Positions 10,382 through 27,345 of a stretch of DNA of 31,154 nucleotides are shown here, in pieces (positions within the stretch are counted from its first letter, which is position 1; every line of letters starts with the position of its first letter). The stretch is from the IMG/VR virus record IMGVR_UViG_3300036841_000213, positions 1 to 31,154 of that record. The stretch is one strand, 5' to 3'. This DNA comes from a virus. The position numbers and the translations under genes are program-made. The notes beneath the pieces are model-generated. The model saw only the letters and a list, made by a program, of their open reading frames with translations, had not been told where the DNA came from and did no database searches.

Positions 10382-10578
10382 TCGTCTCCTGCCTTCTCGC
10401 GCCGCTCCCGGCGCCAGGCCTCGAGTACCATCTGCAGGCGCCGCTCGAGCGCGTACCAGTCGTGGTCACGCGCCATCGCCGGCTCCGCAATGCTCGCTGC
10501 GCTCAGTGCGGTAAACAGCGACACCAGTTCTGCGAGAGAAAATTCCAGCGCAATCAGCTTTTCATCCGCACTGCTCAT
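10369..10578 (-). CDS. Small helical protein (69 aa)
   Basis: Unrecognised and nearly all helical (LIALEFSLAELVSLFTALSA, then WYALERRLQMVLEAWRRERR). It starts as ATGA over the stop of the tail hub gene and overlaps the following gene. It resembles the many short phage proteins with a LxxxEWxxL-type helix pair. No transmembrane segment is strong enough to call a holin. Confidence 0.6.
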   Translation of the reverse strand: MSSADEKLIALEFSLAELVSLFTALSAASIAEPAMARDHDWYALERRLQMVLEAWRRERREKAGDECRG

Positions 10579-11867
10579 AAGCCCGTCGTACCGGCCGCAG
10601 CCGTTGCGTTGACCTCCGCTGCAATCTGCGCCATTGCATCCGCCAGTGTCGGATTGTAGTCGCCGACGGTCAGGCGCACTTCCGTAGTCGCGGCCCGATC
10701 CGGCAATTGCTTCAACACTACCCGCTGCACGGCCATTTCCTTTGCCTGCCAGCCATAGCGCGCCGCCGTCAGGCGCACGATGCCGCCTGGCTGCGCGCCC
10801 ACCGTCCAGCAGATAATTTCGCCGCGTTCGTTCGGCGTGGAAGCCCGCGCCAGATCCGTCTGCGCGAACGTCAGCGCGGTATCCGCATGCGTCACGCGCA
10901 AATCGTAATCAACCCACTGCAGCAGGCCGTACTTGTTAATGGAGGCCTGGTCGTAGACATGCGCCGTCACACCATCGCCGATGAAGGTCACATCATTGGC
11001 CGGCGCGTAGAAATCTTCGCTATAGGCTTCCACCCGAAAGGACGGTTTGCCGGCCACGTCACCCAATTCCAGAATCGGAATCGAAGGGTTTTCCCCATAC
11101 GTCAGTACGCCGTTGACATCGATAAACCAAACCCGGCCGGTTGCCTTCGCGATTGCATCGAGTATCTGCGTCACGGTCTGGTATTGAAAATTCAGCGCGA
11201 GTACGGCCGTGCGCGTGATTGTGCCGGTTTGCAAAATGGAAGGCGTGAGGCCGGTACCCGTCAGAACGTCGCGAATAATTTGATCGTCATACCAGCCGAG
11301 CGCGGTATAGTCTTTCGTCCATTGCCGGCCATCGGTGAACAGCTTGTAATCGCGGCAGCTATAGGACACTTCCACCGTGCCATCGAGCGCGCCCGCATCG
11401 GCCATCGAGCGCGCCGCCACGAAGCCGGCAAACAAGGTCGAAGGGTTCGCCGGCGCGAGCGTCATCGTCGGCAGCGACCAGGCCGCGAACGTCGGCGCAC
11501 CCAGGTACACCGCATCGACGCCGATCGTAAAGACGGTATCGGCCGGCGAGAAGCCACACTCGAACCAGATTTCGATAACACGTGTCGAATCGAAGGCCGC
11601 ACTGCGCATCGGCAGTCGATCCGGCCCCAGGTTATAGACAATGCGGTACGGATTCGGTAGCGCGTCCTGATCACCGGAGATTTGCGAACCATACCAGCTC
11701 GCGCCGTTTTGATCGACCAGCCGGCCGCGGAAAAACCAGGCGCCGCCTGGCCCGCCCTTCGGCCATTCGACCGCTAGGGATAAATAGCAATCGTGAAAGT
11801 CAGCCGGCGCAAAATGCGCCAGGCGAACATGCCCGGCGCCGGATTTGCGATTAACTTGAAACAGCAT
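10575..11867 (-). CDS. Tail tip / baseplate hub-like protein
   Basis: A 430-residue structural protein. The middle part (residues about 160-280) has the pattern of phage tail hub proteins: VEVSYSCRDYKLFTDGRQWT, then YDDQIIRDVLTGTGL, FQYQTVTQILDAIAKATGRVWFID and GVLTYGE. The N-terminal 150 residues look like a beta-rich domain and the C-terminus (VNATAAAGTTGL) is flexible. It should sit at the tail tip near the tape measure. It starts 3 bases after the previous stop and is the last clear virion gene of the operon. Confidence 0.65.
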   Translation of the reverse strand: MLFQVNRKSGAGHVRLAHFAPADFHDCYLSLAVEWPKGGPGGAWFFRGRLVDQNGASWYGSQISGDQDALPNPYRIVYNLGPDRLPMRSAAFDSTRVIEIWFECGFSPADTVFTIGVDAVYLGAPTFAAWSLPTMTLAPANPSTLFAGFVAARSMADAGALDGTVEVSYSCRDYKLFTDGRQWTKDYTALGWYDDQIIRDVLTGTGLTPSILQTGTITRTAVLALNFQYQTVTQILDAIAKATGRVWFIDVNGVLTYGENPSIPILELGDVAGKPSFRVEAYSEDFYAPANDVTFIGDGVTAHVYDQASINKYGLLQWVDYDLRVTHADTALTFAQTDLARASTPNERGEIICWTVGAQPGGIVRLTAARYGWQAKEMAVQRVVLKQLPDRAATTEVRLTVGDYNPTLADAMAQIAAEVNATAAAGTTGL

Positions 11868-11870
11868 CGA

Positions 11871-12422
11871 CTAACTCACCCGGTAACTCAGCGAAATCAT
11901 GCCTTGATTGACGCCGGCTTTGAACAAAGCACTAGCCGGCATCGCAAACACCAATCGCTTATTCACGTTGTCCAGCCAGCATGTCGTAGGAATCCAGCCT
12001 GCGCCAGGCGAAACCACCGATGCGGCTGCCACCTGCGGCGCCGCTAGGTTCGCCGAAGGAACCGGCAGCGTGAGGTACAAATACGTGTCGAGCGTGCCGC
12101 CCAGCGTCAGCGTGAAATTCAACTGCAGCAAGCATTCCGCGCCGCGTCGCAGATACTGCGCCAAAAAAACCGTCAGCGCCGAAATCGTCATCGCGCCGGA
12201 TGCCGTAATCGCCGGCGTGTACGTCTGCCAGTCGCTCCCGAATTTCACCTTTTCGGGAGATGTGAACGTCACCGCGCCAGCGACGGCCAGGACGCCCAGA
12301 TTCGTGAGTGCATAGCCGCCTGCATCCACGTCGCCACCCCACGTCTGCAGGTTTTCGAGCAGCGCGTTATATTGATTCGCCGTCGAAGCTTCGCCTGCTT
12401 GTACCGGCGCCGGCCAACTCAT
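11871..12422 (-). CDS. Short tail fibre-like protein with duplicated anchor domain
   Basis: A 183-residue protein from the ATG at 12422, which overlaps the upstream stop as ATGA and has AAGGGA before it. Its first about 42 residues (MSWPAPVQAG, QYNALLENLQTWGGDVDAGG, YALTN) match the start of the 457-residue protein at 12419-13792, so both probably attach to the same tail site. The rest (DWQTYTPAITASGAMTIS...LSYRVS) is beta-rich and resembles phage fibre tip domains. A second receptor-binding or decoration protein is likely. Confidence 0.65.
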   Translation of the reverse strand: MSWPAPVQAGEASTANQYNALLENLQTWGGDVDAGGYALTNLGVLAVAGAVTFTSPEKVKFGSDWQTYTPAITASGAMTISALTVFLAQYLRRGAECLLQLNFTLTLGGTLDTYLYLTLPVPSANLAAPQVAAASVVSPGAGWIPTTCWLDNVNKRLVFAMPASALFKAGVNQGMISLSYRVS

Positions 12423-13792
12423 CGCGGTTCCCTTTCCGACATCCAGGGAATGACGGTTTCCCAAATCTCGGAATCGGATTTCTTACCGAACACGTGCAGG
12501 CCATCGCCCGCTGCCAGGAAATTCACCGCGCCCACCGGAATAGCAGGCTCCGGCGGTTCATCGCCCTCATACGCGATGCGTTGCTCAGTCTTCGCCGCCC
12601 GCATATGCTCGCGCACCTCATCGAGCGAAGCACCAGAACCGTGCGGCACCCACGCCAAACCACTCACGTTGCCGGAAGCATAGATGTTGCCTTGCGTGCG
12701 CGTCGTACCGGAAGCCGGATAAAACGCCGGATCAACGCCGAATCGCCCATCATTAATAATCTGAAAGTAATTCGCGCCGGTTCCGCTCTTGTTAAGAACA
12801 ATATCGAAGTTCGCCGTCACCCGCCCGCCAGCCGTCACCGTCCCGGCAAATGTGGAATCACCCGCAAAGCTATTGGCACCGCCCATAAGAAGTTGTGTAA
12901 TCGAGCCGAAAAGCGCAAGTTTACGCACGCCCCCATCGTTGATCCCTACCAAATTGAGCCCCGGTCCATAGGTGCCCGCACCGATAACGCCATCATCGGG
13001 ATTGCCCGAAGCCTGTAAGCCGAAGCGTACTGGTGTAGCAAAATCAATGCGCGGGGCAGCATAAGCCGCTATCGAATCGCACTTAATCCCAAGCGCCAGC
13101 GAAACCGGTTGATTATCAAAATAGATCGGACCATTCGCGCGCACGTAAACCTGTGCACCCACCGCCGCATTCGGCGAGCTAACCAGAAGTTGTAAATTGG
13201 AACCCGCCGAACTTTGCGCAGCAACAGTCAGTGCCCGAAACTCCCCGGCAACCACCCCATTGGCGGAAGCTACCAGCCCTCGTACCTGCAAGTCACGATC
13301 CGCGCCGTTTGAATCCGACACTTGCAACACACCCGCCGCATTGCGCTGTATGCCCACGTCGATCATGTCCGAAGGTAAGTTGTTACCGGCAGCAAAACCA
13401 ATCACCCCGAGCGCCGGAAGTTTGATTGGTGAACGCGCATTCGCACCCGCCGTGGCAAACGCAATCAATCCTTGCCCCGCCGTGACGTCCGCCAGCGTCA
13501 GCCACGCGCTTGCACCAGGGGAAGCCGTCCACGCAAAACGATGTCCGCCAGTCGCCGTGTTCTCAATCGCCAAACTTGTGCCGCCGCTATTCGCCGAAGT
13601 CACAAGCAGTGGTGTTCCCTGCGCCGCGGCGCCGTCTGCCGTGAACACTTGCGTATCCACACTAGCCACGTTTCGCAGCGAATAATTGCCCGCATCCACG
13701 TCGCCGCCCCAGGTCTTCAATGCCGCCACCAGTGCGTTATATTGCGCAGCCGTCGCGGTTTGTCCCGGTACGACTGTATTAGGCCAGGCCAT
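12419..13792 (-). CDS. Tail fibre / receptor-binding protein
   Basis: A 457-residue protein whose N-terminal module (MAWPNTVVPG, QYNALVAALKTWGGDVDAGN, YSLRNV) is shared with the next gene. Gly/Ala/Ser/Asn-rich repetitive beta sequence over residues 45-390 suggests a trimeric fibre shaft. A C-terminal segment (GASLDEVREHMRAAKTEQRI and after) could be an intramolecular chaperone or attachment tail, though no peptidase motif is clear. GGAG lies 9 bases before the ATG. It overlaps the upstream 76-residue gene by 14 bp. Confidence 0.7.
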   Translation of the reverse strand: MAWPNTVVPGQTATAAQYNALVAALKTWGGDVDAGNYSLRNVASVDTQVFTADGAAAQGTPLLVTSANSGGTSLAIENTATGGHRFAWTASPGASAWLTLADVTAGQGLIAFATAGANARSPIKLPALGVIGFAAGNNLPSDMIDVGIQRNAAGVLQVSDSNGADRDLQVRGLVASANGVVAGEFRALTVAAQSSAGSNLQLLVSSPNAAVGAQVYVRANGPIYFDNQPVSLALGIKCDSIAAYAAPRIDFATPVRFGLQASGNPDDGVIGAGTYGPGLNLVGINDGGVRKLALFGSITQLLMGGANSFAGDSTFAGTVTAGGRVTANFDIVLNKSGTGANYFQIINDGRFGVDPAFYPASGTTRTQGNIYASGNVSGLAWVPHGSGASLDEVREHMRAAKTEQRIAYEGDEPPEPAIPVGAVNFLAAGDGLHVFGKKSDSEIWETVIPWMSEREPR

Positions 13793-14009
13793 TCTTTTCG
13801 ACTCCGAAAAGCTCGACTGGTGAAACTTCTGCCGCCGGCTCCGGCTGAATCAATAGCCGATCATCTTCCAAGTGAACGCGGCCGCGGAAGCCCTGCTGTT
13901 CGGCCAGAAACTGCAGCGCACCCTGCATCGCTCCCTGCGCCATCGCAACCACTTCCCGCTGCCGGCGAAACCAGGCCTGCTCCGCGGCCGTAAGTTCATA
14001 CGTTTTCAT
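13779..14009 (-). CDS. Small tail-region protein (76 aa)
   Basis: I take the ATG at 14009, which overlaps the upstream stop as ATGA, over the ATG at 14015. The helical N-terminus (LTAAEQAWFRRQREVVAMAQ, GAMQGALQFLAEQQG) is followed by a short strand region (GRVHLEDDRLLIQPE). Unknown; small proteins at this position in siphophages can be fibre chaperones. Confidence 0.6.
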   Translation of the reverse strand: MKTYELTAAEQAWFRRQREVVAMAQGAMQGALQFLAEQQGFRGRVHLEDDRLLIQPEPAAEVSPVELFGVEKNGLA

Positions 14010-14905
14010 GCCCATTGCGCATCCTTACTCGACGGGTATTGTTCATCCGCCCAAAGAAAGCCATCCCAAACCGTGCCCTTCGGACACCAGGCCCAGTGCG
14101 CGTTCTGAATGTTGGCGCCATCCTCCCAGGTGCTCTGGTCCCACTTCTTACAAGTCAGCGGCACGAAGGGAGCCAGGCTGCCAGCGTAGGAGTCCGGATC
14201 GAACGGAGGCAACTGAATACCGGCCGGATAGGTGCGGCCGCACAACCAGACCGAATCGAGCCGGATTGTCGCAAGCAGCGCACCCAGCGGCACATCGGCA
14301 GCATGCGAAAGACGGAACCCGAATTCAACCAGGTTCGCAGGCGTCGCCGGCTGCGCCTGCGTCGGCGCCAGCCGCAGGCCGGCCGCTGCCCAGGCATTCG
14401 CTTCCGGTAGCACCGTGCGCGCCGGCGCCTGCCATTCCAGGCCGGCTGCATCCTTCGCATACGGCAGCACGTAGAGCACCGGCTTCACTGCCGGCGCCGC
14501 GTAGACCACCTGCAGCCAGCCCCAGAATACGAAGCCATTGCCGTTCGTCGGCCAGGCGAACGAATGCACCAGCTCAAGCGCAGCCGCCTGCGTCGCCGGC
14601 GTCCAATCGGTTGCGGCACTGCCGATACCGTAAGCCGACTGCGTCGCATCGAGGCGCAGCGCGGAGCATTCCCCGCGCGCCTGCCAGTCGCGCAGGTCGG
14701 CCGGTTCCTCAAATCCCCACGTTGCCACTTCCGCCCGGCATTCGCGGCCGGTAATCTGCACCTTCGAAAGGTTCGTAATCCACGGCCCGCGGCCGTCTGA
14801 GTGAATCGAGAAATTCGCGGCAGACGAAAACTGCGCATCGAGCGTAACCGCGGCATCGTACCAGGATTCAAGGCGTGCACCGTTGATGAACACATCGAAT
14901 TTCAT
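14006..14905 (-). CDS. Distal tail protein candidate
   Basis: A 299-residue protein directly after the tape measure, the usual place of the distal tail (Dit) or minor tail protein. The N-terminus (MKFDVFINGARLESWYDAAV, TLDAQFSSAANFSIHSDGRG) resembles the early beta domain of tail-tip hubs. The middle (SAYGIGSAATDWTP, FVFWGWLQVVYA) looks like a jelly-roll. The start overlaps the tape measure stop as ATGA. No catalytic motif is seen. The assignment rests mainly on position and fold-like pattern. Confidence 0.55.
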   Translation of the reverse strand: MKFDVFINGARLESWYDAAVTLDAQFSSAANFSIHSDGRGPWITNLSKVQITGRECRAEVATWGFEEPADLRDWQARGECSALRLDATQSAYGIGSAATDWTPATQAAALELVHSFAWPTNGNGFVFWGWLQVVYAAPAVKPVLYVLPYAKDAAGLEWQAPARTVLPEANAWAAAGLRLAPTQAQPATPANLVEFGFRLSHAADVPLGALLATIRLDSVWLCGRTYPAGIQLPPFDPDSYAGSLAPFVPLTCKKWDQSTWEDGANIQNAHWAWCPKGTVWDGFLWADEQYPSSKDAQWA

Positions 14906-17775
14906 CGCACGACCCCGGCCACCTGCAGCGCATGCACGATATCCTGCGATACCTGCTCCGTCGATGGACCAACTTGCACGTTGAGCACAACATTCGGCCG
15001 CAGCGCGCCGGAAGTCAGCGCGGCCCGAATATCGCTCAGAACGGAAACAACCGGCGCAAAATCGACGGAACCGGACACGTCCACCGGCACGCCGTCGGCC
15101 GGCGCAAACTGTATGCGGCTGATAGCATCGGCCAGCGATTGCGTATTAAAAGCGCCGGCCAGCGCTGCCAGCTGCGCCGTAATCGCTGCAAAGCCGCTGC
15201 GCATGTTGTTAAAGCCGGCCGATAACTGGTTCCACAGTTCACTGCCCCAGTGCGTGATATCGGCGCGCAGCCCCACCACCTGATTGCGTGTATAAGCCTG
15301 AAATTCCGTGTACAGATCATGCACGGCCATGTACGTGAGGAACACGCCCTGCTGGATGTTTTCTTCGATCTTCTGCGTGCCCTTCGTCTGAAAGATGCCG
15401 ATAATACCTGTCACCGCGGAAATCGCGCCCGTCACCATGTTCATTGCGCCGCTGATGCCGCCGAGCGCACCGCCAAGCCCACCGCCGGCGCCCCCGGCCG
15501 CGTCGCTGCCCGCTTTAGCAGCCGTCCCGGCGCCGCCGCCCAAGCCGCCGAACAGATCGCCGACACCTTTGAAGGCCTTCGTGACTTCGCCCAGCGCTGC
15601 CGTCAGCCCGTTTCCGCCGAGCAGCGACTGAATGAACTTCCCGACGGCTGCCACGCCCTGCTGCACGAAAATCTGCGTAAACATCTTGCCGATATCGACC
15701 AGCAGCGATTTCGTGATTTCCCCGAAGCTCTTATCCCCACTCCAGAGCGCATCCGTAATATCCGATGCCGTCTGCCGCACCAGTTTCGTGATATTGCGCT
15801 GTGCATCCTTCCACATGGATTCCTGCTTGTCTAACTGCTCACTGGTTTTATGCGTAGTGTCCGTCAAAGTCTGCTGCTGCTCTGCAGCCGATTGTTTGAC
15901 CTGTACGGCTAAATCGGCCAGCGCCTTCTGCTGGTCACGCGACAAGTTAAACCAGTCTTTCGAAATCGTCTGCGTGATGGAATCCCAGGCCGCCTGATTG
16001 ATGCGCTTGATTTCTTCGCTTGACGTGCCGGCGAGCGATACCTGCTGCTTCCAGCCTTCGCGCACGTTATAGAGCATGTCATTGATTTGCTGGTCGCTCG
16101 CGTACTTAATCGATTGCATCGCACCAATGACTTTTTCTGCGCCGGCCATCTGATCCTTCGCCAGCGCCTGCGTCGCAGCATCGGCTTCCTTGTACGTCGG
16201 CGTCAGGCCGCTGATTTGCTCGTTCAGCTTTTTCGCGAGTTCGATCTGCGCCTGCCAGGCGCGAATCGAATCCATAGAAAATTTGCGATGCGCTTCGGCC
16301 ACCGCCTCAACCGCACTCCCGACACCCTGCAGGGCATCGCCGGTTTTGTGTAACTGATCGTTTAGATTTTTCTGATTAACAACCCAGGTAACAACCCCCT
16401 GCATCGCGGATTCATTGCGCTTCGTCAGCTCCGAAATGCGATCGCCGATGCCCTTCAAGGGACTGTTGACGTCCGTGTTGATGGAATGCCCCAGTTCCTG
16501 GAAATCCTTCGTCAGGCCATCGCGCAGCGTGCCCAGGTCTTCGCCGATCACATCGAAGGCAAATTTAAGCCACTCCGGCATCTTCAATGCCAGTTTGTTC
16601 CAGAGTCCGCCGATAGCCGCCAGCTCCCGCTGCGTATTCTGCAGCATGCTTTCGTTGTACTTGTTAGCCTGTTCGGCCAGCTTTTCAAAAATGGCCTGAA
16701 TGACCGCAGCCGCATAGGCCACGTAATGGATCACATTGTCAAGCGATGTCCGCCAGGCCTGCGCCCAGAAATCGCTAGCTTTGGCATTCGTATCGAGCGA
16801 GGTATTGACCAAGCCCAGCGCTTTGCCGATCCCTTCGAAAGCGCCGCTGACGAATTGCCGGATTTGACTGAAGCCGGTACTGAGCGTATCGAATAATTTC
16901 TGCGCCAGGTTCTGAATGACGCCGCTTTTAATGAACCAGTCGCCGAACGCAGAAACCCATTTCAAGGCCTCCGTCACCCAGCCCGATACTTTCTGGATCG
17001 CCGGCCCGAACAGCGTTGTGAAGGCCTGCGCCAGCGCTTCCACGCCTTTACCTGCCGCTTCGGAAAAGACCGTTTTGACTCCGCCCAGCGTGGCATTCAA
17101 ACCTTTTAAGGCCTCCGAACTGGAAAGCGCTTTGATGCCGGTATCGAGCAGCCAGCCGCCGACCTTTTCCGCGATCTGCAGCGCCGTCATGCCGGTTGCT
17201 GCCCCGGCCGCAATCGTCGCCACACTGCCTAAACTCGGTATCAGTTTCGACGCCGCGCCGCCCAGCGACGAGAGGAAACTACCGGCCGTACTCGACTGCT
17301 TGCCGGTATTCTCTAACGCCGTACCCGTCGCCTGCGCCGCCTGCGCCACCTGCACGGTTTTCGCGGCTGCCTCGCTGGCGGCCGTTGTGGATGCCTTGAA
17401 GGCATCCGTCACCTTCGTGGTAGCCGCAGCCGCATTCGTTTCCGCGGTTGCCGTCGCGGCCGCCGATTCAGCTACTTTTTTCGTCGATTCCGCAGCCGAT
17501 GCCGCGGCCGTCGCCGTCTGCACGAATTGCGCATTCGATGCATTCAGCGCCGTATTGAGCGCTGCCATGGATTGCGTCGTTTCGGCGTTCGCCAGGCCAG
17601 AGGTTTTCACCGACACCGAGAGCGCATCGAAGGATTTCGATGCGTTCGCAGCCGAAGCCTGAATGGAACCGACTGCCGCATCCGTTACTTTCTGCGCCTC
17701 CGCAATGGAACGGTTATAGGCATCCGTCACCGCATGGAGAACAACACTGACGGTTCGATTCAGGCCTTCAGGCAC
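14902..17775 (-). CDS. Tape measure protein
   Basis: A 957-residue protein. Residues 1-180 are Ala/Thr/Ser-rich coiled coil, then hydrophobic Gly/Ala segments occur near 180-230 and 340-370. A long charged helical part (about 380-690) and a Gly-rich hydrophobic stretch (about 740-800) follow, with a C-terminus ending in LNVQVGPSTEQVSQDIVHAL. This is the standard make-up of siphovirus tape measures, which set tail length and pass into the host during DNA entry. By the usual 1.5 angstrom per residue the tail would be about 140 nm. It overlaps the chaperone extension upstream and Dit candidate downstream. Confidence 0.93.
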   Translation of the reverse strand: MPEGLNRTVSVVLHAVTDAYNRSIAEAQKVTDAAVGSIQASAANASKSFDALSVSVKTSGLANAETTQSMAALNTALNASNAQFVQTATAAASAAESTKKVAESAAATATAETNAAAATTKVTDAFKASTTAASEAAAKTVQVAQAAQATGTALENTGKQSSTAGSFLSSLGGAASKLIPSLGSVATIAAGAATGMTALQIAEKVGGWLLDTGIKALSSSEALKGLNATLGGVKTVFSEAAGKGVEALAQAFTTLFGPAIQKVSGWVTEALKWVSAFGDWFIKSGVIQNLAQKLFDTLSTGFSQIRQFVSGAFEGIGKALGLVNTSLDTNAKASDFWAQAWRTSLDNVIHYVAYAAAVIQAIFEKLAEQANKYNESMLQNTQRELAAIGGLWNKLALKMPEWLKFAFDVIGEDLGTLRDGLTKDFQELGHSINTDVNSPLKGIGDRISELTKRNESAMQGVVTWVVNQKNLNDQLHKTGDALQGVGSAVEAVAEAHRKFSMDSIRAWQAQIELAKKLNEQISGLTPTYKEADAATQALAKDQMAGAEKVIGAMQSIKYASDQQINDMLYNVREGWKQQVSLAGTSSEEIKRINQAAWDSITQTISKDWFNLSRDQQKALADLAVQVKQSAAEQQQTLTDTTHKTSEQLDKQESMWKDAQRNITKLVRQTASDITDALWSGDKSFGEITKSLLVDIGKMFTQIFVQQGVAAVGKFIQSLLGGNGLTAALGEVTKAFKGVGDLFGGLGGGAGTAAKAGSDAAGGAGGGLGGALGGISGAMNMVTGAISAVTGIIGIFQTKGTQKIEENIQQGVFLTYMAVHDLYTEFQAYTRNQVVGLRADITHWGSELWNQLSAGFNNMRSGFAAITAQLAALAGAFNTQSLADAISRIQFAPADGVPVDVSGSVDFAPVVSVLSDIRAALTSGALRPNVVLNVQVGPSTEQVSQDIVHALQVAGVVR

Positions 17776-18166
17776 GGCGTTTAGCTCCCGGCAGGCTCAG
17801 AAAATACGCCTCCAATTGCCGGCCGCTAGGCATCTGCGGCGCACGCGGCCGCGCCGGCGCCGGCGTTTCCTCCGGCTTCGTCAGCAGGAAAGATTCAATG
17901 GATACCTCCGGCGCATCCTTCGCGCGGTTTGCCTGATAGGTCAGATAGAGTAACTGCGCAATCATAAGCTCCCAGTGCCGGTTCCCTTCCTTCCACTGCT
18001 CGATGAGCGCATCCAGTTCCGGCCGCGTCAGCTCCCAGAATTCCCACTCAGAGAGCCGGAGCCGGATACGCGCGAAAGCCCGGAGCCGCTCCCACTCGGA
18101 AACGAGGGAACCGCCAGGCCGTTGATTGCCTGCGCCGGCTCCGCGGCCGGCTCCGCGGAAGGGTTT
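17768..18166 (-). CDS. Tail assembly chaperone GT extension (made by -1 frameshift)
   Basis: This frame has no start of its own in its conserved part. From the slip at 18160-18166 it runs through a Gly/Ala/Arg linker into SEWEFWELTRPELDALIEQW, KEGNRHWELMIAQLLYLTYQ and ends at 17768. The FWELTRPELD pattern is typical of the T part of siphovirus G/GT chaperone pairs that bind the tape measure. Without the shift only the last 65 residues could start (ATG at 17965), which would split the domain. The fusion gives about 88 G residues plus this extension. Confidence 0.8.
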   Translation of the reverse strand, partial: KPFRGAGRGAGAGNQRPGGSLVSEWERLRAFARIRLRLSEWEFWELTRPELDALIEQWKEGNRHWELMIAQLLYLTYQANRAKDAPEVSIESFLLTKPEETPAPARPRAPQMPSGRQLEAYFLSLPGAKRRA

Positions 18167-18429
18167 GCCGTGCCCATCGCCTCCGCGATGCAGGCGTTGT
18201 AATATGACAGGTTCTGCATTTCGATCAGCGGCCGCAGGATTTCGAGCGTGAGATCGGCGTGTTCGTGGCGCAGCCCCAGAAACATCGCTACCGCAATGGA
18301 ATCGACATCACGCTGTGGAAGCTGCTGCAGCTCCAGCACATCCGCCAGCGTGTAGTACAGGTAGCGCGGCACTTCGTCGCCTAGCACGATTTCGACCCGC
18401 TGCAGGATTTTTCGTTTTCGCTCCGGCAT
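18028..18429 (-). CDS. Tail assembly chaperone G
   Basis: A 133-residue protein between tail tube and tape measure genes. It starts with a basic helix, then VEIVLGDEVPRYLYYTLADV, LELQQLPQ and HADLTLEILRPLIEMQNLSY, a helical fold like other phage G chaperones. The last 45 residues, after the slip site, are low complexity (SAEPAAEPAQ, SGSGSGLSRVSGSGS), as expected for a tail read only when ribosomes do not shift. One base separates it from the tube gene stop. Confidence 0.8.
   Translation of the reverse strand: MPERKRKILQRVEIVLGDEVPRYLYYTLADVLELQQLPQRDVDSIAVAMFLGLRHEHADLTLEILRPLIEMQNLSYYNACIAEAMGTANPSAEPAAEPAQAINGLAVPSFPSGSGSGLSRVSGSGSLSGNSGS
18134..18166 (-). promoter_or_regulatory. Programmed -1 frameshift signal
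   Basis: In the G frame the message reads GCA AAC CCT, so A-AAC-CCT is an exact XXXYYYZ heptamer (18166 to 18160). Eight bases later stems GCCGGC (18151-18146) and GCCGGC (18139-18134) can pair around a 6-base loop. Slipping back one base gives AAA CCC and enters the T frame without a stop. Heptamer, spacing and hairpin are all in the expected arrangement. Confidence 0.75.
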
Positions 18430-18430
18430 C

Positions 18431-19204
18431 TCAGGCCACCCGCCCGAGCGTCGATTCGTCGCCCAATGGCCGGCGCGTGCGCAGCGTATCCGGCGCGCCT
18501 TCGCGCTCTACCGTCACATCGCCGTACTGCCGAAGCGTGCAATTCAGCTTCATCGCGCCCGTGCCGGTAAAGGCCAGCGGCAGCGCCGTAACGAATGCCG
18601 CAAAGGTAACCACCAGCGTTTCGCCGGCTGCGTATTCCGTTTCGATCTTGAACGGCCGCACTTCGTGCGTTTTCGAGAGATGAATTAGGCCGGTCAGTTC
18701 GTTATGCGTGGGATCATCCGGCCAGTAATTCACCACCAGCGCAATATCCCCCGGCGTCGATAAGCCCGGAATCTGCAGCACGACCTTCGAGGCATTTGCC
18801 AGGTTATTCACGTCCAGCATAGAAATCGCCGGCGATGGAATCGTCAGGCTTTCCACGTTCGATATCTCCTGCCAGGTCGGCTCCGAACTGGCATCGTTAC
18901 AGGTTCCTAGGTAGACGTGCGACGGAACCGGCACGAAGCCGGCCGGCGTTACGTTCGGATCGGCCGCGATCTGCGAACAAATCGAAGCCTTCGTTACGGA
19001 AATGGAAGCGCCGGCCGTATGCGCCGCGGCCGTCGTGCCCTGCTGCCCGCGTATGATCTGGTAGGTATCGCCGGAGCCTCCGGTTACCTTCACCTTTTCG
19101 GTTTCAATCTGGAGCATGTCGCCGGTTGCTACGGCGTCGTGCCCGGTATTCAGTTCTAATGTGGTGTCAGTCGCCGAAATATCGGCCGCCAACGTCGTAG
19201 GCAT
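18431..19204 (-). CDS. Major tail tube protein
   Basis: A 257-residue protein. Residues about 1-75 form an N-terminal beta module with the pattern TTLELNTGHDAVATGDMLQI, ETEKVKVTGG and IIRGQQGTTAAAHTAGA, often found fused to phage structural proteins and possibly exposed on the tail. The rest (PTWQEISNVESLTIPS, GDIALVVNYWPDDPTHNELT, GETLVVTFAAFVT) matches the tail tube fold that polymerises as hexameric rings. GGGAG lies upstream of the ATG. Its place between terminator and chaperones is standard. Confidence 0.85.
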   Translation of the reverse strand: MPTTLAADISATDTTLELNTGHDAVATGDMLQIETEKVKVTGGSGDTYQIIRGQQGTTAAAHTAGASISVTKASICSQIAADPNVTPAGFVPVPSHVYLGTCNDASSEPTWQEISNVESLTIPSPAISMLDVNNLANASKVVLQIPGLSTPGDIALVVNYWPDDPTHNELTGLIHLSKTHEVRPFKIETEYAAGETLVVTFAAFVTALPLAFTGTGAMKLNCTLRQYGDVTVEREGAPDTLRTRRPLGDESTLGRVA

Positions 19205-23471: not shown

Positions 23472-24993
23472 GTCCGTTCGTTCGTAGGGAATTGGATTTG
23501 ACACCAGCCGGCAGCAGCTCGAACTGCTGCCGGCCCATCTGTAACAACTGCAGGCGCCGATAGGCCTGCGTTCCTGCCTTCACATCATCGGTAGCCGGCG
23601 CCTCCGCCTGCTCCGGCGTAAACAAATCACTGCCGCCACCTGCGCCCGCGTTCGCATCCGGCGACTGCTCGCCACGCGTTACCAGCGCTTCCGTCTGCGC
23701 TTCGCGGTACGCTAAATCCGCTTCCGCCTGCTCCAACTTCACGCGCGCCAGCGGCTCGAATTCGTCTAAGGGTACGGTATTCAACTGCACGGTACGCAGC
23801 TCACCGTTCGTCACGTTGTCCAGTTCTTCCATCTGGCGCACATCGTTGATGGAAAGAAACCCATAGCGCAGGCCGATGCTATAGGCTTCGTAGCGCGTCT
23901 TCAGATCGCCCTTCAGAATCGGCGTCAGCGAATGCCGCGTGAAAAATTTCGACGTGCGAACGCTGCCTTCGAACAGCTTGTAATCCACTTCCTGCTGCAG
24001 CCGGATCGTCGCCGGCAGGAAGGTTTCGTTAAAGCAGTCAATTTCGAGCGCCTCGATGTTCGCATAACTCGCTTCTTCGAGAATGCCGATCTTATGCTGC
24101 GGCACACGAAACCAGCGGCAGATTTCCTGCGCCTGAAATTGCCGGCTTTCTAGGAACTGCGCATCGCGCAGCGGAAGCTGCAACTGGTTATACTTCATGC
24201 CGGATTCTAGAATCGGCACTTCCCCGGCATTGCGCCAGCCCATGTAGCGTTCGCGCCAGCTCCGTTTAATCGCGTCGCTATGTTCCTTATCCGGCAGTTT
24301 CCCCGGATACTCCATCCAGCCCGAGAGAAACGGCGCATTCTGAAAACCGACCGAACCGAAAACTTCCAGCTCTTTACCGAACGAAATCGTTTGCGACGCC
24401 TGCGCCACCGTACTCAATCCCAGCAGGCCATTCGTACCGATATTGCGCCAATGCAGCATGTTGTCGGCCGAAATCGTGCGATCCGCTTCGCCGACATTAC
24501 CCCGCACGTTGTACAGCAGATTCCCGCGCGCATCGCGCTCGACCTCCACCTGCTGCGACGGAATCAGCCAGAGCTGATACGGATAGCCGTCGTTGCCCCA
24601 GGTAATTTCAGCGTACGCATTGCCCCAGGCCAGCATCTGCATCACAACGGCTTCGCGAAAATTCATGGCCGGCATATCGTCGTTCGGCCGGCGATTCAGC
24701 AGGTACCAAACCCGCACATCCGAACGCTGCCGCGAGGCGCCATCCGGCAGCCGTTCGAAAACTTCCCATTCGAGCATCGCCAGCGTTTCGGCAATCACGC
24801 GCATGCAGGCGAACACTGCCGAATACGTCAGCGCCGTGTCTGGCGTTACCGGATAGGAACCGGGCACACGCCGCGGAGGCAGCCACCCACCGGCCGTTTG
24901 CCGTGGATCCGGCTGGTACTGATTCAGGAAGCGCACCGCACGCGCCAGCAGCGCCAGCACGGGATTTCGCGGCAGCGGCAGAGCATCCGTCAT
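23422..24993 (-). CDS. Portal protein (HK97 gp3-like)
   Basis: A 523-residue protein of the HK97 portal family. It has TYSAVFACMRVIAETLAMLE and WYLLNRRPNDDMPAMNFREA, the YPYQLWLIPSQQVEVERDAR strand and MLHWRNIGTNGLLGLSTVAQ. These are followed by RWFRVPQHKIGILEEASYAN and TRYEAYSIGLRYGFLSINDV. It forms the dodecameric channel at one capsid vertex for DNA entry, and binds terminase and the gp6-like ring. The last about 100 residues are a variable, acidic Ala-rich tail overlapping the protease gene. Confidence 0.95.
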   Translation of the reverse strand: MTDALPLPRNPVLALLARAVRFLNQYQPDPRQTAGGWLPPRRVPGSYPVTPDTALTYSAVFACMRVIAETLAMLEWEVFERLPDGASRQRSDVRVWYLLNRRPNDDMPAMNFREAVVMQMLAWGNAYAEITWGNDGYPYQLWLIPSQQVEVERDARGNLLYNVRGNVGEADRTISADNMLHWRNIGTNGLLGLSTVAQASQTISFGKELEVFGSVGFQNAPFLSGWMEYPGKLPDKEHSDAIKRSWRERYMGWRNAGEVPILESGMKYNQLQLPLRDAQFLESRQFQAQEICRWFRVPQHKIGILEEASYANIEALEIDCFNETFLPATIRLQQEVDYKLFEGSVRTSKFFTRHSLTPILKGDLKTRYEAYSIGLRYGFLSINDVRQMEELDNVTNGELRTVQLNTVPLDEFEPLARVKLEQAEADLAYREAQTEALVTRGEQSPDANAGAGGGSDLFTPEQAEAPATDDVKAGTQAYRRLQLLQMGRQQFELLPAGVKSNSLRTNGHDGNHSIPRNRVAGSS

Positions 24994-25012
24994 CGAGAAC
25001 CCCCGCAGCCGC

Positions 25013-25018
25013 TAAAAT
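25013..25018 (+). promoter_or_regulatory. -10 box of the antisense moron
   Basis: TAAAAT lies 6 bases before the ATG at 25025, as in the two cassette genes at 721 and 28967. No Shine-Dalgarno and no good -35 are seen, so the message may be leaderless. Confidence 0.45.
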
Positions 25019-25024
25019 CAGTGC

Positions 25025-25339
25025 ATGGCCGATGAACCCGCCAATGGCGATATTCCGTTCTCTGGCAATCCAACCGTCGATGCGGCACTGAAACGCATCC
25101 GAGCGAAATTCCGCGACCTGGAAGACGCCATGATCGTACAGGCCCATCTCGAAAAACGACTAGGCGAACAGGTGAAGCGCCAGACCGAATTGTGGGACAA
25201 CCACGATGCCTCATTAACGGCACATCAGCAGCGGATAAGCGACCATGACGCATGGATGAAACACTTCGAAGAAAAACTCGATGCGTTAACAAACATCCTG
25301 ATGCGCCGTCACGGCGGCCCCGAAGCCACAGAGCAGTAA
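25025..25339 (+). CDS. Antisense moron: coiled-coil protein (104 aa)
   Basis: This is a plus-strand gene inside the minus-strand head operon. After a short acidic N-terminus the protein is almost all charged helix (AALKRIRAKFRDLEDAMIVQ, LEKRLGEQVKRQTELWDNHD, KHFEEKLDALTNILMRRH), a likely coiled-coil dimer. It fills the gap between portal and the 82-residue gene exactly, ending 6 bases from that gene's stop. Such lone reversed genes (morons) are usually expressed from the prophage and give host-level effects such as superinfection exclusion. Function here is unknown. The opposite-strand ORF over this interval has a worse composition. Confidence 0.7.
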   Translation: MADEPANGDIPFSGNPTVDAALKRIRAKFRDLEDAMIVQAHLEKRLGEQVKRQTELWDNHDASLTAHQQRISDHDAWMKHFEEKLDALTNILMRRHGGPEATEQ

Positions 25340-25345
25340 GATTCA

Positions 25346-25594
25346 TCATTGCCCGAATGCTCCGTACTCGTCGCGCTGGCTTTCGTTCTGCGCTTCGCGT
25401 ACCGTCAAGCCGCCCAGCGCCATCAAATCCAGCCGCACAATCGCCGGCCCTTCCGGTTTCATTTGCAGCTCGAGCGAATGCACGCCGGTCAGCTCGTAAC
25501 CGTCCAGCAAAACACGCGTCCCGATCAGCCGCGTACCATTCGCTGCGAAGCCCTTCGGCACAATGATTTCGATATGCGGCCGGTTCGAGGTCAT
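25346..25594 (-). CDS. Small head-region protein (82 aa)
   Basis: It starts over the terminase stop as ATGA. Predicted beta-rich (HIEIIVPKGFAANGTRLIGT, VLLDGYELTGVHSLELQMKP, AIVRLDLMALGGLTV), similar in pattern to small proteins found between terminase and portal in other siphophages. No specific function assigned. Confidence 0.7.
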   Translation of the reverse strand: MTSNRPHIEIIVPKGFAANGTRLIGTRVLLDGYELTGVHSLELQMKPEGPAIVRLDLMALGGLTVREAQNESQRDEYGAFGQ

Positions 25595-27345
25595 AAGCCG
25601 GCCAGTTCATCGAAACTGCCTTCCCTTGCTTCCTCCGGCACACGAAACGGGAGCGTGCGAATTTCCGGCCGGCCGTCATAAGCAGACGGCGCCGCCAGAT
25701 ACGCTTTAATCACGCGATCAGCCGCCAGGAACATCGCCACGGCCGCATCAATCTTATTCGCCCGCGTCTGCTTGCGCGGAAAGTAGTTATCGTTCGCATC
25801 GCGCCGGCAGACCACGTTCGATACCATCCAGGCCACTGCCGGATTGCCGTCGTGCGCGATTTGCTCCGCGAGTAGCCAGGCCTCCGTTTCTTTCATCGCC
25901 GGCGAAAAAATCGCCGTCGCCTGCTTCGTATCTGCAACCGGCGTCTCAAACGATCGGCGATTCAAAATCGAGAGCAACGGAGGCAACTGCCAGGGATCAG
26001 CCGCCATCTCCCGCACATCGTAAACCCGGCCGATTGCTTCCAGTTCATCGGCCAGCGCTTCGAAATCCTGGATGTTACCCGCTACGACCGTGATGTAACC
26101 CTGCTTCGCCCAGGTTTCGAGCAGCGCATTCTCTTCCTGCGCGAGCGCCCGCTCCGGTATCCACAACCGGAACACAAGCCGATGCCGTTCGCAGCCCGCT
26201 TGCGGAGGAAACCAGAGACAGACCGCGATTAAATCGCTCTTCGTCGCCAGGTCTAAACCGACGTAACAGAATTCTCCCGGCTGCGGCTGCACGAAGCCTG
26301 CGGCAGCGCGCCGCCAATAGCTCAGATCGAGCCAGGCCGCAAACGCATTGACCCACTGATTGCCGCGCGTCGTCTGAAATGCCGCCAGCGATGCCGGCGA
26401 ATGCTTCGCCTTCTGCGCCAGCGCCTGAATGTCACTCAGATAAACCGATACGCCCAGGTTCGGATTCGCTTTCGGCCAGTTCGCCGGCTCTAATGCATCG
26501 TCGCCTTCATCCAGCGTGTAAATCGCACCACCGACGGTTTCATCCGCAATCGTGCCTTCCAGAATCTTCGTCAGGTAGCTGCGCACTTCAAAACACACGC
26601 CGTACTGGTTCGCGCCGGCCGTCGTAATCGCAAACAGCAGCGGCTGCAGACGCGAACCTGTCGCCGTTTCGAGAACGTCCCACAGCTCGCGCTTGCGATG
26701 CGCATGAAACTCATCGATGATCGCGCCATGAATATTCAATCCATCCAGGTGCTTCCCTTCGGCCGATAGCGGTTTGAAGCTCGACGCCGTGCACAACTGC
26801 GTAATGGCATTCGCCAGCACCCGCACGCCAAAGCGGCGCCGGAATCTCCAGTCGCGTTCTACCAACCGCTGCGCATCGGTAAACGAAATGCGTGCCTGCT
26901 CGCGCGTCGTCGCCGCACTCACAACCGTCGCGCCGGCTTCGTTATCGGCGCACAGCAGGTATAAGCCGATGCCGGCTACCAGGGTTGTTTTACCGTTCTT
27001 TCGTGCCACGTCCAGATACCAGAGCCGGAAGCGCCGCGCACCGGTATCACGGCTGCGCCAGCCAAAAACCGTTGTCACCTGAAACAACTGCCACGGCTCG
27101 AGCCGCATATGCAGACCGCGTGTCGCCCAAGTACCATGCACGTGACCGAATCCTTCGAGAAATTGACAGACACGTTCCGCCTGCTCCACATCGAACCGAT
27201 ACGGCCCGCTATCCGCCCAGCGCTTCAAATCCTCAAGCTGCCGCTGACAGGCCAGCCGAACCCAGCGGCAGGCCAGGATTTCGCCCGAGACGATCTGCTC
27301 TGCGTATGCGAGCGCCTGTTCGACATGGGGAAACGCGGAAGGCAT
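25591..27345 (-). CDS. terL: Terminase large subunit
   Basis: A 584-residue packaging motor. The ATPase part has the deviant Walker A ARKNGKTTLVAG at about residue 115 and Walker B GAIIDEFHAH at about 210, followed by the ITTAG coupling motif. The nuclease part has VGLDLATKSDL (first acidic residue) near residue 370 and ANKIDAAVAMF (last Asp) near 545. This is the HK97/phage_terminase_1 type, which makes cohesive ends. It follows the small subunit after about 80 bp. The nearest Shine-Dalgarno (AAAGG) is about 20 bases off, so the exact start is less sure. Confidence 0.95.
   Translation of the reverse strand: MPSAFPHVEQALAYAEQIVSGEILACRWVRLACQRQLEDLKRWADSGPYRFDVEQAERVCQFLEGFGHVHGTWATRGLHMRLEPWQLFQVTTVFGWRSRDTGARRFRLWYLDVARKNGKTTLVAGIGLYLLCADNEAGATVVSAATTREQARISFTDAQRLVERDWRFRRRFGVRVLANAITQLCTASSFKPLSAEGKHLDGLNIHGAIIDEFHAHRKRELWDVLETATGSRLQPLLFAITTAGANQYGVCFEVRSYLTKILEGTIADETVGGAIYTLDEGDDALEPANWPKANPNLGVSVYLSDIQALAQKAKHSPASLAAFQTTRGNQWVNAFAAWLDLSYWRRAAAGFVQPQPGEFCYVGLDLATKSDLIAVCLWFPPQAGCERHRLVFRLWIPERALAQEENALLETWAKQGYITVVAGNIQDFEALADELEAIGRVYDVREMAADPWQLPPLLSILNRRSFETPVADTKQATAIFSPAMKETEAWLLAEQIAHDGNPAVAWMVSNVVCRRDANDNYFPRKQTRANKIDAAVAMFLAADRVIKAYLAAPSAYDGRPEIRTLPFRVPEEAREGSFDELAGL

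Follow-up and report, generated by a model that had tools for sequence, protein, structure and literature searches.

The locus raises the question of how a T-like tail protein is produced from a reading frame that has no start codon of its own. We analysed a 31,154-base virus record at its full length (the window), which carries a temperate HK97-type gene set consisting of integrase, terminase large subunit, portal, ClpP-like protease, HK97-fold capsid and primase-helicase. The structural genes lie on the minus strand. A search for tRNA genes in the window returned none. In or near the structural module, the ORFs at 10575-11867, 12419-13792, 14006-14905 and 24990-25679 have no PHROG or Pfam match at E 0.001. 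The word AGGCCT occurs 25 times in the whole window, where a maximal-order model expects 8.1.

The chaperone pair is flanked by a major tail protein (MTP) gene matching phrog_158 upstream and a tape measure protein (TMP) gene matching phrog_24 downstream, giving the order MTP-G-T-TMP. The reading frames of the region are as follows:

18431-19204, minus strand: gene of the 257-aa major tail (tube) protein, immediately preceding G and matching phrog_158 (major tail protein, E 3e-13).
18028-18429, minus strand: zero frame, a 133-aa G-like tail assembly chaperone that matches phrog_2115 ('tail protein', E 3.8e-5).
17771-18307, minus strand: open stretch in the -1 frame relative to G, containing FWELTRPELD.
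18160 down to 17771, minus strand: putative T extension, followed by a stop codon at 17768-17770.
17771-18097, minus strand: T domain (EWERLRAFARIRLRLSEWEFWELTRPELD...), whose distant relatives match PF06223 or PF09550.
14902-17775, minus strand: gene of the 957-aa tape measure protein, matching phrog_24 (tail length tape measure protein, E 2.4e-6).

The GTG start of the tape measure gene overlaps the end of T. Similarity of the major tail protein to PF16460/PF16461 is below the Pfam cut-off. The -1 frame carries a conserved "EFWELT" domain. The initial annotation described the T domain (FWELTRPELD) as open in the -1 frame and lacking a start, and this holds: the frame is open from 18307 to 17771, and between the upstream stop and the EFW motif ATG, GTG and TTG are absent, with only ATA, CTG and ATC present.

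The candidate site for entry into the T frame lies within the overlap of the two frames:

18160-18166, minus strand: slip heptamer A_AAC_CCT (GCA AAC CCT in G), the sole in-phase XXXYYYZ motif of the overlap.
18160-18163, minus strand: C_CCT tetramer, the slip-site portion shared by every relative in the two clades.

The first A of AAACCCT (18166-18160) is codon position 3 of G, and the G stop lies 136 nt past the heptamer start. Among the XXXYYYZ motifs of minus-strand positions 18460 to 17401, AAACCCT alone has the correct phase, and the overlap holds no other XXXYYYZ of any phase. The exact, correctly phased heptamer that had been proposed from the letters is therefore present. In nine genes of the window, in-phase XXXYYYZ motifs occupy 3 of 4291 codon positions, which corresponds to approximately 0.06 expected per 92-codon overlap. 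When synonymous codons were re-drawn for the same G residues, the probability of obtaining at least one in-phase heptamer was 0.275 for the window and 0.083 for the relative L016. One in-phase heptamer is by itself barely beyond chance and not compelling (P about 0.06-0.28), so the case rests on conservation in relatives.

An IMG/VR search with G returned five close contigs (L002-L006), of which L004 and L005 are identical in this stretch, leaving four distinct sequences. A search with the tail tube protein returned six more distant contigs that represent two distinct sequences: L016-L019 and L022, which share the same G and T translations, and L020. Together with the window, this gives seven distinct sequences from two clades. 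The G proteins of the two clades are 39% identical, and the six more distant contigs share 53-55% identity with the window in the MTP and 35-36% in the GT fusion. Among cultured phages, no relatives matched G, MTP or GT and none matched the T domain of L016; scans of genome_contigs for relatives were likewise negative.

Both frames are present in all five close contigs. AAACCCT is in phase in four of them (L002, L004, L005 and L006). In L003 (3264-3270), GAACCCT replaces AAACCCT and the spacer has ACG in place of GCG; the similar L006 retains AAACCCT. In all six more distant contigs, AAACCCT occupies the position that aligns with the window site and is followed by a T frame in -1. Counted by distinct sequence, C_CCT is in phase in 7/7 and A_AAC_CCT in 6/7, the remaining one being the G_AAC_CCT of L003. 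At the level of the Ala-Asn-Pro codons, AAC and CCT never vary, and six of the seven have GCA for Ala. GCA and CCT are minority codons, GCA accounting for 9-16% of Ala codons. From codon usage, the chance of encoding Ala-Asn-Pro as GCA AAC CCT is 0.007 in the window, 0.0026 in L017, 0.0068 in L014 and 0.0091 in L012. The -1-frame residues directly after the slip are common to both clades (GAG..., QRPG). The window and L016 use the same codon at 24 of 41 conserved residues, so synonymous sites are incompletely randomised and the slip site is not uniquely conserved.

Because the pair lies in an MTP-TMP neighbourhood, its -1 frame is startless and the slip site is kept in two clades, we read the locus as a lambda G/GT-type -1 programmed frameshift. 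On this sequence evidence it very probably encodes a G/GT tail assembly chaperone belonging to a temperate siphophage of the HK97/lambda type, with the shift at A_AAC_CCT. This is the best reading available, and agrees with the tail chaperone frameshift that the initial annotation had placed at AAACCCT.

The strongest competing explanation also assumes a real frameshift, in which just the C_CCU tetramer is needed: a slip of the Pro tRNA from CCU onto CCC would be enough, with little help from the AAA-C half. C_CCT is indeed the sole in-phase slippery tetramer of the overlap that is common to all seven distinct sequences, including L003. In E. coli, C_CC.U is described as a weak but real -1 tetramer when combined with a strong stimulator (PMC4066793). 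The same account treats a strong stimulator as a requirement of tetramers, and the GCA codon that completes the heptamer is kept in six of the seven sequences despite its low usage. In addition, GAACCCT in L003 could be an assembly error, or slipping could still take place there through a G-U pair. We consider the tetramer-only explanation unlikely. If it were true, a class of site that ranks as poor under the E. coli rules would need compensation from host Asn/Pro tRNAs or from the GC-rich stem, and L003 would constitute a natural test of doing without the AAA half.

It is improbable that the shift occurs elsewhere in the shared open stretch with AAACCCT as a bystander. The codon-phase constraint switches near the T domain, with the best breakpoint at G offset 333 as opposed to 263 for the slip. 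Since this breakpoint marks the start of the T domain and does not pin the slip site, we dropped it as a locator of the shift. A GGGY tetramer is present in phase at -9 in the close relatives, which would provide another place to slip. However, L016 and L020 lack GGGY, and their sole in-phase tetramer beyond the heptamer's own is at -81.

Separate translation of T, from an unusual start or by re-initiation past the G stop, has a very small probability. Potential starts can be found: an ATC codon 99 nt past the heptamer start in the window and, in the T frame, GTG codons 33 nt before the heptamer in L016 and 108 nt after it in L020. Against this, L002, L003, L004 and L006 share with the window the absence of ATG, GTG and TTG between the upstream stop and the EFW motif, and the conserved -1-frame residues of the close sequences begin well upstream of the G stop. 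Overlapping frame pairs can also result from indels, but a sequencing or assembly indel, a decayed gene or transcriptional slippage is next to impossible here, as the layout recurs in 11 other contigs of two clades (which rules out an isolated error), the indels of the close contigs come in multiples of three and the longest homopolymer of the overlap is 4 G.

A -1 slip at A_AAC_CCT could be aided by neighbouring sequences, and two candidates flank the heptamer:

18134-18151, minus strand: candidate stem-loop GCCGGC-CGCGGA-GCCGGC with a 6-nt loop, -11.4 kcal/mol alone, 8 nt past the heptamer.
18179-18186, minus strand: Shine-Dalgarno-like GCGGAGGC, a possible upstream stimulator with 12 nt between its end and the heptamer.

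The spacer between the heptamer and the stem (TCCGCGGA, 18159-18152) is exactly 8 nt, so the position and spacing of the GCCGGC stem-loop were given correctly in the initial annotation. The GCCGGC stem is found at the same spacing in all five close sequences, the window included, the loop being 6 nt long in the window and 12 nt long in the other four. The stem never varies among them, and thus offers no covariation. The genome is GC-rich, and the window contains GCCGGC 120 times, compared with 28.8 in dinucleotide shuffles; a maximal-order Markov model, however, expects 118.8. GCCGGC-N3..15-GCCGGC pairs occur seven times in the window. The 50-nt segment that begins at the fifth base past the heptamer has a stable fold (-25.4 kcal/mol, z -1.3, within the lowest 1.8% of 600 local windows), but it is GC-rich. 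The corresponding z values against shuffles are about 0 in L003 and L006, -0.3 in L002, -4.1 in L004, -0.3 in L016 and -0.8 in L020. Among distant relatives with other slip sites, strong hairpins are seen in L036 (z -5.3) and L038 (z -2.7), but not in L034 (-0.4) or L037 (-1.2). A stimulator role for the candidate hairpin is plausible. The weight originally placed on it is weakly justified given the common word, the z of -1.3 and the lack of covariation, and we rejected the hairpin as main evidence since GCCGGC pairs are frequent in the window and the fold does not reach significance when compared with shuffles.

The Shine-Dalgarno-like sequence has a duplex energy of -9.5 kcal/mol, and 3.3% of random places are equally strong. 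It is as strong in L002 as in the window, weaker in L003, L004 and L006 and absent from L016 and L020. We rejected it as a general feature because only the window and L002 have it in strong form among the seven sequences.

The protein products were compared with profile and structure databases. phrog_2115 matches all 12 aligned G proteins. For the aligned T proteins, 4/11 match PF06223 (Minor tail protein T) and 5/11 match PF09550 (Phage_TAC_6) at E <= 0.01; the T of the window itself is sub-threshold, with 13.9 bits for PF06223 (cut-off 25.9) and 15.1 bits for PF09550 (cut-off 23.4). AlphaFold2 models of G and T were built from 11-row alignments. The G model is ordered at approximately residues 11-89, followed by low confidence and predicted disorder at 91-133. 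The slip codon would thus fall at the edge of the predicted G domain. The T model contains a helical domain (approximately residues 20-81) behind a low-confidence linker. The best BFVD match of the G model is a 'Tail assembly protein' (E 1.2e-4). A Foldseek search of the G model against the PDB gave nothing at E <= 0.001; in a second look at solved structures, the HK97 tail assembly chaperone 2ob9 was the top match, but a weak one (Z 4.6, rmsd 6.5, 88 aligned). PDB sequence-profile searches gave nothing useful for G and a single chain for T, sc-CC-8-58, the name of which suggests a designed protein.

Scans with the fusion and T alignments, together with a phage search, identified 11 more distant lineages: L034/L035, L036, L037, L038/L039, L042, L043, L047 and the annotated phages L048-L051. 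This count of layouts leaves out the contig duplicates L040, L044 and L045 and the hits H15 and H18; further viral scans yielded no additional lineage. Ten of the 11 combine a -1 T frame and an in-phase heptamer, the heptamers being CCCTTTA, GGGAAAA with AAAAAAC, AAAAAAG, CCCTTTG, CCCTTTA, AAAAAAC, CCCAAAC and three instances of GGGAAAC. None of the 11 uses A_AAC_CCN as the slip site. L043 (1529-2288) has a related chaperone pair whose T is offset from G by +1 (or -2) and which lacks an in-phase XXXYYYZ; this arrangement reflects either a different type of shift or an assembly error. Among the annotated phages, gp14 of Streptomyces phage Dubu is recorded as a two-piece tail assembly chaperone, and Rooney, Yara and the Syntrophomonadaceae phage carry separate annotations for the two genes.

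The slip heptamer of lambda is G_GGA_AAG, and in this respect the window, with A_AAC_CCT, differs from it. The systems are alike in gene order, a short G, a -1-extended GT, a startless T and a slip heptamer near the 3' end of G (PMC5009743), and distant relatives of the window T match the Pfam Minor tail protein T. The lambda shift is described as a low-level event with a G:GT ratio of about 30:1, and G-T frameshifting as widely conserved (PMC5009743). HK97 is comparable in that its chaperone 2ob9 is the weak top structural match of the G model and in that the window carries HK97-type head genes; the Z score is only 4.6 and the PDB sequence profiles add no useful match for G. In an HK97-like cluster, 6-7% shifting is reported for two chaperone genes (PMC3711429). 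Streptomyces phage Dubu has the order MTP-G-GT-TMP (gp13/gp14) with GT as the two-piece join and a T distantly related through L038, but its in-phase heptamer is G_GGA_AAC. SPP1 gp17.5/gp17.5* is presented as a putative -1 frameshift chaperone pair and a functional analogue of lambda gpG/gpGT, with UUUUUUC as the slip site in place of A_AAC_CCT (PMC6316719).

All heptamers were tested in E. coli by Sharma et al. 2014 (PMC4066793). By that account, CCN codons in the A site are less shifty on average, heptamers with X and Z of like class do better, mixed purine/pyrimidine heptamers rank low and the sister motif A_AA.C_CC.A is below threshold. Judged by these general rankings, A_AAC_CCU is expected to be weak in E. 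coli. The initial remark that a C-rich heptamer is less usual for phage chaperones was fair, considering this low rank and the absence of A_AAC_CCN from the 11 distant lineages. A C-rich site nevertheless has precedent, as all four bases are reported at X, at Y and at Z among the SEA-PHAGES joined genes that carry such motifs (PRFect, PMC10885494). Our limited search for literature on AAACCCT or AAACCCU and frameshifting found nothing relevant, which does not show that the site is unreported. Incidental occurrences were AAACCCT within a PCR primer and AAACCC within an SPP1 terminator (PMC6316719).

For the frameshift at A_AAC_CCT, we infer both the slippage itself and the contacts of the G and T proteins. 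The majority of ribosomes would read G and terminate at 18028. On A_AAC_CCT, a minority would move back by a single base as the Asn tRNA pairs anew with AAA and the Pro tRNA with CCC; their onward translation in the -1 frame would complete a GT fusion of 220 residues. The hairpin and the Shine-Dalgarno-like sequence may stimulate this step. By analogy to lambda, G would coat the tape measure protein and T would recruit tail tube subunits.

The mechanism is already known, and only the exact slip letters are uncommon. The picture of tail assembly is unchanged by the finding. The known slip sites of tail chaperones gain a conserved heptamer that contains C, with L003 as a natural variant for asking how much of the heptamer is required. 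This is also of use for annotating GT in metagenomic phages of high GC content, in which ordinary gene callers overlook T.
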